This document shows positions 4,629-10,164 of a stretch of 64,000 bases of DNA, piece by piece (the stretch's first letter is position 1; every line of letters starts with the position of its first letter). This DNA is from Zafaria cholistanensis (GTDB lineage Bacteria; Actinomycetota; Actinomycetes; Actinomycetales; Micrococcaceae). The DNA is taken from the NCBI RefSeq assembly GCF_008580665.1, contig NZ_BKDJ01000012.1, forward strand, positions 1-64,000, given 5' to 3'. Position numbers and translations under genes: made by a program. The notes below the pieces were generated by a model, which was given only the letters and a program-made list of their open reading frames with translations, made no database searches and had not been told where the DNA came from.

Positions 4629-5618
4629 CTAGCGGGGGAAGTCCACGGCGCGCAGCTGGCCTACCGGCAGCCCGCCGCCCAGGACGGGGTCCGGCTGAAG
4701 GGATGCCAGCGTGCCGCCGTCCAGGCCCATCAGTTCGAGGGCGTGGAGGGTCACCGGCAGCCGGGCCCGGTCCGCACCGTCGGCGATCTTGATTGCCAGC
4801 GAGCGGCCGTCCGGCAGCCCTATGAGCTGGAGGCCTTCGAATCCGTCCTTGGCGAGCAGGCCGGGCACCCGGCGCATCAGCGCGGTGACGTCCCGCCCCT
4901 CGCCGGCCACCTGCTCGGGGTGGGCGCGCATGGCATCGGCCACTGCCGCCTCCGCGCTCCCCGGCGCCGCGGAGGCGATCAGTCCGAACGCCCGGGCCAT
5001 GCCGCCCAGCGGTACCGCAAACAGCGGGGTTCCGCAGCCGTCCGTGCTCACAACGGGCAGTTCCCCGCCGGTGAGCTCGGCGACGACGCCGGCAATTGCC
5101 TGCTGCAGGGGATGCGACCGTTCCATGTACCCGCGCACGGGCCAGCCGTTAACGACGCAGGTGGCCACCATGGCCGCGTGCTTGCCCGAGCAGTTCTGTG
5201 CCAGCCGGGTGGCGGTGCCGCCGCGCCGCAGCCACTCGCCGCTCTCAACGCGGCCGTAAGGAAGGTCCGGGGTGTTTTCCAGCGACTCCTCGTCCAGTCC
5301 GTGCAGGTCCAGGATCCGCCGGGCCCCCTCGACGTGCATGAGGGAACCGGAATGGCTGGCAGCGGAGAGCGCCAGCAGCTCCGCCGGCAGCCGAAGCCCG
5401 GCGCGGACCATGGCCACGGCCTGCAACGGCTTGAGCGAAGAGCGGGGGTAGAACAGCGCCATCGGATCTCCGGCCCAGAAAATCGTGCCGCCGTCCGGCG
5501 CCAAGGCGATCACGGACCCGTAGTGGACGCTCTCCACCAGCCCGTCGCGGGTCTGCTCCGCGATGGGCACGTGGGCGGGCCGCACGGTGCCCGGGTTCAC
5601 AACGAGGGGCTGGAGCAC
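4629..5618 (-). CDS. Asparaginase (Asparaginase_II family, PF06089 type)
   Basis: 329 residues if translated from GTG 5618, which has AAAGGA 7 bases upstream. An in-frame ATG at 5669 has no good ribosome site and would add 17 low-complexity residues. Family motifs are clear: YPRSSLKPLQA, NCSGKHAAM and DGCGTPLFAVPL, the last two holding the likely nucleophile and binding residues. This family is unrelated to the E. coli AnsA/AnsB fold and hydrolyses asparagine to aspartate and ammonia. It lies 102 bases after the FadR gene and 62 before aspA, consistent with one transcript. Confidence is high for the family and slightly lower for the start. Confidence 0.87.
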   Translation of the reverse strand: MLQPLVVNPGTVRPAHVPIAEQTRDGLVESVHYGSVIALAPDGGTIFWAGDPMALFYPRSSLKPLQAVAMVRAGLRLPAELLALSAASHSGSLMHVEGARRILDLHGLDEESLENTPDLPYGRVESGEWLRRGGTATRLAQNCSGKHAAMVATCVVNGWPVRGYMERSHPLQQAIAGVVAELTGGELPVVSTDGCGTPLFAVPLGGMARAFGLIASAAPGSAEAAVADAMRAHPEQVAGEGRDVTALMRRVPGLLAKDGFEGLQLIGLPDGRSLAIKIADGADRARLPVTLHALELMGLDGGTLASLQPDPVLGGGLPVGQLRAVDFPR

Positions 5619-5720
5619 AGAAATATCCTTTGGTTCGAGGGGGAAAGCTTGGGGTGGGAAAGTTGGCATCTGCGGATGCGGATCCGACGGGCTGCGGGCC
5701 CGCAGGGCGGTTGTCCGGTG

Positions 5721-6416
5721 TCAGCGGCGCAGCACCCGGTCCAGGGCAGCGTCGACCGCAGCGAGGTGGCGGCGCATGGCTTCAGCGGCCTGCTCGGGTG
5801 AGGCCGCTTCGATGGCGGCCACGATTTCGCGGTGCTCCACATCGGAATCGGCCTGCCGTCCGGCCACCATGTTCAGGGTCTCCGACTGGTTGGCCATCGC
5901 ATCGCGGATGTCGGCCACCACCTTCTCGAAGACACGGTTGCCGCTCATCCTGGCGATCGCACCATGGAAAGCGCTGTCCAGCGCCACCCAAGCCTCCGGG
6001 TCCTTTTCGCGGTCCATGGCGGCCATGATGTCGCGGAGAAGCTGCAGCTCGTCCTCGCTGCGCCGCTGCGCGGCCAAGCCGGCGGCAGGCACTTCGATGT
6101 GCGGCCGGGCCTCGGTCAGGTCCCGCGCCGAATACTGTCCCAGCGCCAGATCGCCGCCCACATGGTCGGAGACTACGAAGGTTCCCTTACCCGTCCGGGT
6201 CTCGGTCAGGCCCAGGGAGGCGCAGGAGCGCAGGGCCTCCCGGACCACCGACCGGCTGACTCCGTACTGCTGCGCCATGGCCGCTTCCGAGCTCAAGCGG
6301 GTCCCCACGGGAAGCTCGCCGCCCTCGATGGCCTGGCGAAGGGAGGTGAAGACGGCTTCGGCCGCGCTGACTCGTACAATTTGCTGTCCTGCTGTCCAGC
6401 TGTCTGACAGGTTCAC
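5721..6416 (-). CDS. GntR/FadR-family regulator of the asparagine operon
   Basis: 231 residues: a winged helix-turn-helix (about 15-80, with LSSEAAMAQQYGVSRSVVREAL) followed by an all-helical FCD domain. FCD metal-ligand positions are visible as D-x-x-F-H (LDSAFHGAI), EHREI and a late H (MRRHLA). It is the first gene of the operon that continues with asparaginase, aspartase and permease, so it probably senses asparagine, aspartate or fumarate and controls its own operon. The GTG start is 6 nt from a -10-like box with no ribosome site, suggesting a leaderless message. An inverted repeat lies at its first codons. Confidence 0.88.
   Translation of the reverse strand: MNLSDSWTAGQQIVRVSAAEAVFTSLRQAIEGGELPVGTRLSSEAAMAQQYGVSRSVVREALRSCASLGLTETRTGKGTFVVSDHVGGDLALGQYSARDLTEARPHIEVPAAGLAAQRRSEDELQLLRDIMAAMDREKDPEAWVALDSAFHGAIARMSGNRVFEKVVADIRDAMANQSETLNMVAGRQADSDVEHREIVAAIEAASPEQAAEAMRRHLAAVDAALDRVLRR
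6400..6410. promoter_or_regulatory. Candidate FadR-type operator
   Basis: CTGTC-T-GACAG is a perfect short dyad covering codons 3-6 of the FadR-type regulator, immediately downstream of its predicted transcription start. The position suits autorepression by a GntR protein. Inferred from position and symmetry only. Confidence 0.4.
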
Positions 6417-6422
6417 GTTTAA

Positions 6423-6452
6423 AAAATGTCATGGATCACATTTGCCTGTCAA
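6423..6452 (-). promoter_or_regulatory. Promoter of the asparagine operon
   Basis: On the minus strand a perfect -35 TTGACA (6447-6452) is followed after 18 bases by CATTTT (6423-6428). The predicted transcription start falls on or next to GTG 6416, making the first gene leaderless. Confidence 0.6.
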
Positions 6453-6562
6453 TTTCCCGCTTTCGGCTCCAGGGCCCCAAGGCCGGAGGGGGCGGGGGAC
6501 CGCTTCCACGGGCCTCCGCCGCCAGCGATTCCGCAGGGCGGTCGAAGCGGCAGGATGCCCCT

Positions 6563-6792
6563 TGTGGATAACGCGGGGAGGGCCGTGGAAAAGTCGCCCC
6601 TGCGGGATGAGTTTTTCCCCACAGCTATCCACGGCTGGGGAGAAACGCCCGATCAAAAAACTTTTTATGCACAGGCGTGGATAGCTGTTATTCCTAGTCA
6701 AATAGGAAATGTGGATAAAGGTTGTGGCTAATCCACAAGTTTCTCCCCAGGCTGTGCACACAACACGCCGCGCAACGCACACCTTATCCACA
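6563..6792. promoter_or_regulatory. DnaA-box cluster with AT-rich stretch upstream of dnaB
   Basis: Within 230 bp there are three perfect DnaA boxes (TTATCCACA): minus strand 6563-6571 and 6710-6718, plus strand 6784-6792. One TTATGCACA lies at 6665-6673. Weaker boxes occur at 6625-6633, 6676-6684, 6723-6731 and 6729-6737; the last two overlap inside a TTGTGG/CCACAA dyad. Between about 6650 and 6720 the DNA is AT-rich, striking in this genome and like an unwinding element. dnaA itself is not in the window, so this may be a DnaA titration or dnaB control site, or an accessory origin element, rather than oriC. Confidence 0.7.
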
Positions 6793-6811
6793 GGGGCTGT
6801 GGGTGGGCCGC

Positions 6812-6840
6812 TTGGGGAGGGGGGTAAAGAGGTCTAGGGT
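6812..6840 (+). promoter_or_regulatory. Predicted dnaB promoter
   Basis: TTGGGG (6812-6817) and TAGGGT (6835-6840) are separated by 17 bases. Transcription would start near 6847, leaving a leader of about 140 nt before GTG 6988. The last perfect DnaA box ends 20 bases before the -35. Confidence 0.45.
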
Positions 6841-6987
6841 GGCATGGTCTCCACTGCATCCCGGGCCCCGCGGCCATGCCGCCGTCCGGCGTCCACAGTG
6901 ACGCAAAGTGTCGTACCCGGCTGGGATGCTGGGGGAGTCGGAGGGCGGGCCGCGCGGCACGCCCCGGCGAAGTTGAAGGGAAAGCCC

Positions 6988-8361
6988 GTGTCGCTCACGC
7001 ACCTAGATTCGGCAGAAGGATCCGGAGAGTCCGAGTTTGGCCGGACCCCGCCGCAGGACCTCGTGGCGGAGCAGAGCGTGCTCGGCGGCATGATGCTCTC
7101 CAAGGACGCCATCGCCGACTGCGTGGAGGTGCTGCGCGGCGTCGATTTCTACCGCCCGGCGCATGAGGCGATCTACGAGTCCATCATCGACCTCTACGGC
7201 CGCGGCGAGCCCGCCGACGCCGTCACCGTGTCCGACCTGCTGACCAAGCGGGGCGAGATTGCCCGCATCGGCGGCCCCGCTTACCTGCACACCCTGCTGC
7301 AGTCCGTCCCGACCGCCGCCAACGCCGGGTTCTACGCCGAAATCGTGCGCGAGCGCGCGGTGCTGCGCCGCCTGGTCGAAGCCGGCACGAAAATCGTCCA
7401 GATGGGCTACTCGCAGGACGGCGAAGTCGACGAGATCGTCAACCAGGCCCAGGCCGAGGTCTTCGCGGTGGCCGAACGCCGCACCGCGGAGGACTATGTG
7501 CCGCTGCGCGACATCATTGAGGGCACCGTCGACGAAATCGAGTCCGCCGGCCACCGTGGCGAGGGGATGACCGGCGTCCCCACCGGCTTCTACGAGCTCG
7601 ATGAACTCACCCAAGGCCTGCATGGCGGGCAGATGATCGTTATCGCCGCCCGGCCGGCCGTGGGCAAATCCACCTTCGCCCTGGATTTCGCCAGGTCGGC
7701 GGCTATCAAGAACAACATGACCGCGGTGTTCTTCTCGCTCGAAATGGGCCGTAACGAGATTGCGATGCGCCTGCTTTCGGCCGAGGCGAGTATCGGCCTG
7801 CAGGACCTGCGAAAGGGAACCATCAAGGACGAGCAGTGGGGCAAGATCGCCACCACCATGGGCCGGCTCAACGACGCCCCGCTGTTCATCGACGATTCGC
7901 CCAACATGTCGCTGATGGAAATCCGTGCCAAGTGCCGGCGCCTGAAGCAGAAGCATGACCTCAAGCTGGTGGTGCTCGACTACCTGCAGCTGATGAGCTC
8001 CGGCAAGCGCGTCGAATCCCGCCAGCAGGAAGTCTCCGAGTTTTCCCGCGCCCTCAAGCTCCTGGCCAAGGAGTTGGACGTCCCGGTCATCGCGCTCTCC
8101 CAGCTGAACCGTGGCTCCGAGCAGCGCACCGACAAGAAGCCCATGGTTTCCGACCTGCGCGAATCTGGATCGATCGAACAGGATGCCGACATGGTGATCC
8201 TGCTCCACCGCGAGGACATCTACGACAAGGAGTCCCCGCGCGCCGGCGAGGCCGACGTGATCGTGGCCAAGCACCGTAACGGCCCGACCAAGACGATCGT
8301 CGTCGCGTTCCAGGGCCATTACTCGCGCTTCAACAACATGGCTACCGAGGGCGGAATCTAG
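6988..8361 (+). CDS. dnaB: Replicative DNA helicase DnaB
   Basis: 457 residues from GTG 6988, chosen because GAAGGG lies 7 bases before it; an upstream in-frame ATG at 6844 would add 48 residues without homology features. The N-terminal DnaB domain begins PPQDLVAEQSVLGGMML and the RecA-like core has Walker A ARPAVGKST near residue 222. The FFSLEM motif, Walker B region LVVLDYLQLM and the DLRESGSIEQDAD motif H4 follow. It is the hexameric fork helicase loaded by DnaA and partner proteins. No intein interrupts the P-loop, unlike in some mycobacteria. A DnaA-box cluster lies directly upstream. Confidence 0.95.
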   Translation: MSLTHLDSAEGSGESEFGRTPPQDLVAEQSVLGGMMLSKDAIADCVEVLRGVDFYRPAHEAIYESIIDLYGRGEPADAVTVSDLLTKRGEIARIGGPAYLHTLLQSVPTAANAGFYAEIVRERAVLRRLVEAGTKIVQMGYSQDGEVDEIVNQAQAEVFAVAERRTAEDYVPLRDIIEGTVDEIESAGHRGEGMTGVPTGFYELDELTQGLHGGQMIVIAARPAVGKSTFALDFARSAAIKNNMTAVFFSLEMGRNEIAMRLLSAEASIGLQDLRKGTIKDEQWGKIATTMGRLNDAPLFIDDSPNMSLMEIRAKCRRLKQKHDLKLVVLDYLQLMSSGKRVESRQQEVSEFSRALKLLAKELDVPVIALSQLNRGSEQRTDKKPMVSDLRESGSIEQDADMVILLHREDIYDKESPRAGEADVIVAKHRNGPTKTIVVAFQGHYSRFNNMATEGGI

Positions 8362-10002: not shown

Positions 10003-10052
10003 TTGCTGACTAATAAGTGTTTCTTCAATGTAAAAGATAGACGCAGAGTCTA
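10003..10052 (+). promoter_or_regulatory. Promoter region with TAGAC-N5-GTCTA operator
   Basis: The sequence becomes AT-rich from about 9990. A TTGCTG -35 candidate lies at 10003-10008, with a weak -10 near 10026-10038. The perfect dyad TAGAC (10038-10042), spacer GCAGA, GTCTA (10048-10052) overlaps the expected start of transcription of the amidohydrolase operon. The same dyad occurs at 50668-50682 upstream of another operon that encodes a paralogous TetR protein, so it is a probable TetR operator. Confidence 0.55.
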
Positions 10053-10164
10053 GATTTCTTGGGCAAGTTCAGGTTCCATTGGGAAGGTACAGAGACGTGG
10101 GTCACGCCGAGCGCGCGTGAGGGGCTCCACTGGAACTCCACACCCAACATGCGAGGAGGCAAAC

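Follow-up and report, generated by a model that had tools for sequence, protein, structure and literature searches.

What does a dense cluster of DnaA boxes do directly upstream of the replicative helicase gene dnaB, on DNA that does not contain dnaA? The window, the whole 64-kb stretch of Zafaria cholistanensis DNA analysed here, raises this question. The first-pass annotation considered a likeness to a replication origin as well as a DnaA-controlled dnaB promoter. The boxes, their conservation, their register with a promoter, their attachment to dnaB and their separation from oriC are all observed directly. From these we judge it likely that transcription of dnaB is controlled from this region and that DnaA regulates, most likely activates, this gene.

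Boxes in the window and position in the genome

The cluster sits between the leftward gene of a GntR/FCD regulator and dnaB. The regulator gene is the end of an asparaginase, aspartate ammonia-lyase-like and permease set, and Pfam confirms the asparaginase-operon genes that had been named as neighbours. With up to one mismatch allowed, there are 11 matches to TTATCCACA in the window, and six of the 11 fall in the 230 bp of 6563–6792. A shuffled window holds 2.3 ± 1.5 such matches, and none of 100 shuffles reaches 11. With two mismatches allowed, 6563–6792 holds 13 matches and other 300-bp stretches of the window hold at most three. The claimed cluster thus consists of three perfect, three one-mismatch and several weaker boxes in 6563–6806 (Table 1). 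Perfect TTATCCACA boxes number only 15 in the whole draft genome (3.29 Mb). At least two of them occur within 400 bp at just three places genome-wide: oriC (C6:98.0–98.2 kb), C6:83.37–83.76 kb and the site upstream of dnaB. A spacing of 55 bp between boxes on the same strand is the commonest in the sampled loci. The array was also said to lie beside the most AT-rich stretch noticed in the window. This holds at the 100-bp scale, where 6643–6742 ranks first, but not at 50 bp, where 10011–10060 is richer (70% AT).

Two other elements are found among the boxes. Block 6741–6769, with the pattern TCTCCCCA..CTGTGCACA(A/C)(A/G)ACACGCC, is highly conserved in Micrococcaceae, and DnaA boxes do not account for its ACACGCC part. 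The motif CTAGTCA at 6694–6703, about 290 bp upstream of dnaB, is conserved in Micrococcaceae and reads AGGTCAG in other genera; we know of no binder for it.

Table 1. Features of the region upstream of dnaB (window positions)
Feature	Position	Strand	Basis or remark
Perfect DnaA box TTATCCACA	6563–6571	-	Match count; equivalent (-) box at about -420 of dnaB in many Micrococcaceae
Weak box TTTTCCACG	6584–6592	-	Two mismatches
Weak box CTATCCACG	6625–6633	+	Two mismatches
AT-rich stretch inside the array	6643–6742		Base composition, 61% AT
DnaA box TTATGCACA	6665–6673	+	One mismatch
Weak box CTATCCACG	6676–6684	-	Two mismatches
Perfect DnaA box TTATCCACA	6710–6718	-	Match count
DnaA box TTAGCCACA	6723–6731	-	One mismatch; overlaps box 6729–6737
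DnaA box TAATCCACA	6729–6737	+	One mismatch; 55 bp before box A
Conserved block TTCTCCCCAGGCTGTGCACACAACACGCC	6741–6769	+	Alignment of Micrococcaceae upstream regions; weak boxes in register
Box A, perfect TTATCCACA	6784–6792	+	Start-to-start distance to the -10 hexamer 51 bp
Box B of the convergent pair	6798–6806	-	Degenerate in the window (TGTGGGTGG); many relatives have TGTGGATAA
-35-like hexamer TTGGGG of P1	6812–6817	+	TTG conserved at this place
-10 hexamer TAGGGT of P1	6835–6840	+	Conservation; 17-bp spacer; start expected near 6847
Second promoter, putative RecA-NDp/PafBC-type remnant TGTCG...GATGCT	6908–6930	+	Degraded here, well conserved in relatives
dnaB, replicative DNA helicase	6988–8361	+	GTG start, no intein; Pfam DnaB and DnaB_C

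As the first-pass annotation stated, dnaA is absent from the window. It is found at C6:98.3–99.9 kb, where DnaA boxes flank it on both sides in the normal actinobacterial oriC arrangement. The gene rplI, usually the upstream neighbour of dnaB, is on contig C6 with dnaA, 78 kb apart, and this contig presumably continues into contig C12. Among the 14 complete or near-complete relatives in which both coordinates are measurable, dnaB lies about 27–87 kb from dnaA, and 241 kb in one. In the same 14 relatives it is on the strand opposite dnaA and directed away from the origin. The site upstream of dnaB is therefore origin-proximal, but it is not oriC.

Conservation and register with the promoter

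All 29 Micrococcaceae loci have boxes upstream of dnaB, the opposite of the outcome that the first-pass annotation had said would count against its reading. Boxes are also present at most of 80 named loci, including Streptomyces, Microbacterium, Nocardioides, Kitasatospora and Nonomuraea. Most of 60 genomes from 27 families across the class carry boxes too, 127 in all compared with 5 for the reversed word. A pooled mixed sample of Actinomycetes gives at least one box in 153 of 170 loci and at least two in 136, while the reversed-pattern control gives 17 and 1, respectively; shared ancestry inflates these raw counts within families. Only the counts of the held-out set, 60 genomes with the tests fixed beforehand, are independent of the discovery data. 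In these genomes the boxes number 134 while the reversed pattern occurs 5 times, with at least one box in 51/60 and at least two in 42/60. Boxes are absent from 17 of the 170 loci and nine of the 60 held-out genomes (Nesterenkonia, Rothia and Brachybacterium are examples), and many lineages keep just one to three. Nearly all boxes lie at -100 to -450 of dnaB. They stay near dnaB while the rplI–dnaB distance varies from about 0.3 to 9.5 kb; the boxes therefore belong to dnaB, and attachment to the rplI operon is ruled out.

The predicted promoter P1 is of sigma-70 type (TTGGGG-17-TAGGGT, 6812–6840). Here, as in many relatives, 5 bp separate the promoter from the end of the convergent pair of boxes. 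Alignment gives a shared module of box A (+), 5–6 bp, box B (-), 5 bp, TTGnnn, 17–18 bp and TAnnGT. The offset from a (+) box to TAnnGT peaks at 51/52 bp (53 pairs, compared with a mean of 1.35 per offset), and that from a (-) box at 37/38 bp (45 pairs, compared with a mean of 0.47). The strict 51-bp module is present in 100 of 170 loci, although its definition followed inspection of the data and the first count used those same data; it is absent from the reverse strand and from block shuffles. Outside dnaB upstream regions it occurs only twice in 3.1 million strand-bases. When the module offset is displaced, counts above one or two appear solely at -12, +11 and +21 bp, that is, at helical steps. 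The distances of the other (+) boxes from the promoter repeat every 10.9 bp (R 0.85, lineage-collapsed). For the DnaA boxes of oriC, a spacing change of part of a turn is highly detrimental while a full turn is tolerated (review PMC4285127).

The register is repeated in the held-out set, with R of 0.59 between boxes and 0.48 between boxes and promoter (0/5000 simulations each), but the strict module is found in only 8/60 of these genomes, and never on the reverse strand. The cluster and its register are therefore shared across the class but the exact pair is not; this weakens a class-wide rule of a single dyad. Micrococcaceae, Streptomyces, Microbacterium and some other families often have the strict module. 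Of 120 family genomes, 33 contain the exact dyad TCCACA-N5-TGTGGATAA, with about half of its sites just upstream of dnaB; the Z. cholistanensis genome has no copy. The P1 of the window has a degenerate box B and a weak -35. A generic scan of the region for sigma-70 promoters and terminators finds nothing; P1 is predicted from conservation. No structured RNA of Rfam matches 5600–7100 up to E 0.1.

A second element follows P1 in many relatives. The RecA-NDp motif of PafBC, with a consensus that we take to be TTGTCRGTG-N8-TAnnnT, is matched with at most two mismatches between P1 and the start codon in 49 of 147 non-redundant loci and 22 of 60 held-out genomes; the reverse strand gives no match in either set. 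In many relatives this element, downstream of the boxes, fits the RecA-NDp/PafBC promoter known from published work (PMC6789036, PMC8151990). The copy of the window differs in being degraded, with at least four mismatches in the best match upstream of dnaB, and the link to PafBC is made through the motif. The name of the motif and its role are described in PMC6789036. Mitomycin C induces dnaB of M. tuberculosis, and PafBC accounts for part of this induction (PMC8151990).

Probable DnaA control of dnaB and its alternatives

A DnaA-controlled dnaB promoter, one of the functions suggested in the first-pass annotation, is strongly favoured by the conservation of the boxes, their position relative to dnaB and not rplI, the promoter geometry and the binding of DnaA in mycobacteria. 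The site combines two features of DnaA-regulated promoters, a box cluster upstream of the gene and a helically phased, fixed place relative to the promoter. DnaA would bind the box array 200–420 bp upstream of dnaB. With the -10 at 6835–6840, transcription is expected to start near 6847, and the convergent pair would therefore lie at about -63 to -41, just upstream of the P1 -35, which is the usual place for an activator. The other boxes are spaced from this pair by approximately whole helical turns, which would place a DnaA oligomer along a single face of the helix. Binding of DnaA in Z. cholistanensis, activity of P1 and the sign of the regulation are what we infer from this arrangement. Activation of dnaB by DnaA would couple the supply of helicase to the level of the initiator, and the replication initiator probably also sets the amount of helicase made.

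A DnaA-regulated dnaB promoter is already known as a kind. Within the literature searched, which includes few subscription journals, DnaA upstream of dnaB in actinobacteria is described only in an M. tuberculosis paper (PMC7738170). It reports binding there by IDAP-seq (in vitro) for M. tuberculosis and by ChIP-seq for M. smegmatis; the M. tuberculosis variant DnaA I282T binds more weakly upstream of dnaB, and dnaB is under-expressed. This site, in the Rv0057 region, has the same gene, the same place and the same actinobacterial class as ours, a likeness of gene and place and not of aligned DNA. The two differ in that binding is experimental in mycobacteria, while the accessible text describes no box-promoter geometry, register or class-wide conservation (PMC7738170). 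DnaA boxes also lie upstream of dnaB in Caulobacter crescentus, where the gene is a member of the DnaA regulon (Hottes et al. 2005, as cited in PMC8203912). Caulobacter is an Alphaproteobacterium, and the likeness is in the boxes upstream of dnaB.

Among the alternatives, a titration or DnaA-ATP reset locus that limits free DnaA, in the manner of E. coli datA and DARS or of the Streptomyces clusters, fares best but is unlikely; it would explain the proximity to dnaB by an origin-proximal, early-duplicated stretch, and our assessment covers both parts together. The nearness of dnaB to the origin in relatives and a similar cluster at C6:83.4 kb agree with it, but it is dnaB, not rplI, that the boxes accompany, they are phased with its promoter, and the one to three boxes of many lineages are few for titration. 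The site resembles datA and DARS as a strong-box cluster near the origin; it differs from them in that it is not independent of the neighbouring gene and promoter. The Streptomyces coelicolor clusters H24, H69 and D78 are likewise dense DnaA-box clusters close to oriC and outside it; they differ in being, reportedly, titration sites that control initiation. By mismatch count, strong boxes are denser here (three perfect and three with one mismatch) than in the organism's own dnaA–dnaN oriC gap (two and one), and because of this surplus a titration role in addition to promoter control is possible as a secondary function.

Negative feedback, with DnaA repressing dnaB from these boxes, is rather improbable. 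The proximal boxes are upstream of the -35 and not over the -35 or -10, and dnaB expression is reduced with the weaker-binding DnaA variant of M. tuberculosis (PMC7738170). In a few lineages, however, a (-) box lies over or close beside a -10-like hexamer (offset 6 or 17–18), and DnaA autorepression of dnaA is common (review PMC8203912).

An accessory or ancestral origin is very improbable. Several boxes beside an AT-rich stretch and locally divergent genes do give the site some likeness to an origin, as had been claimed, but dnaA/dnaN are not adjacent and a canonical dnaA–dnaN oriC with boxes is on another contig. No GC-skew minimum or switch is found within the 64-kb window, and thus none at the site upstream of dnaB. 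The sites in relatives are about 27–240 kb from dnaA, and DNA unwinding at the site is unlikely in lineages that have one box only. The position of dnaA and oriC, the absence of a skew switch in the window and the dnaB–dnaA distances lead us to reject this reading. Although AT-rich words concentrate in the AT-rich spacers of a 68% GC genome, a chance cluster or base-composition artefact has a negligible probability and is refuted by the shuffles, of which 0/100 reach the observed count, by the reversed word of equal composition, about 25-fold rarer in relatives, and by the helical spacing of the boxes.

Scope of the proposed DnaA control of dnaB in Actinomycetes

Returning to control of dnaB by DnaA, we see about even chances that the circuit, with a fixed architecture, goes back to the root of the Actinomycetes and that this DnaA site outside oriC forms a core element of actinobacterial replication control. 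In this broader form, taken as one claim, a helically phased DnaA array abuts the dnaB promoter, many lineages have a distinct DNA-damage promoter after it, and helicase supply is tied to the level of the initiator in most families of the class. In the literature searched, with most subscription journals outside its scope, no description of class-wide conservation and promoter register of the dnaB boxes was found. Mycobacterial ChIP-seq shows few DnaA sites away from oriC, and the finding helps to account for one of them; such a site is common to most sampled families of Actinomycetes. It also offers an exact geometry, with a box pair 51–52 bp before the -10 and boxes that repeat at about 11 bp. 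Initiator level and helicase supply would form a feed-forward pair if DnaA activates dnaB, which would bear on the timing of replication in actinobacteria, antibiotic producers included.

Two further observations concern the surroundings of these genes. The second dense cluster, at C6:83.37–83.76 kb, has three perfect and three one-mismatch boxes, with TTATTAACA beside a box twice. Its neighbours are ppiA and a gene of the rhomboid family, and dnaA is 15 kb away; the gene order suggests that the cluster corresponds to the Rv0010c–Rv0011c DnaA site of M. tuberculosis (PMC7738170). In DnaB of many relatives the matches are split near query residues 227–234 and 394–403, in frames of 700–1300 aa, an intein-like pattern.
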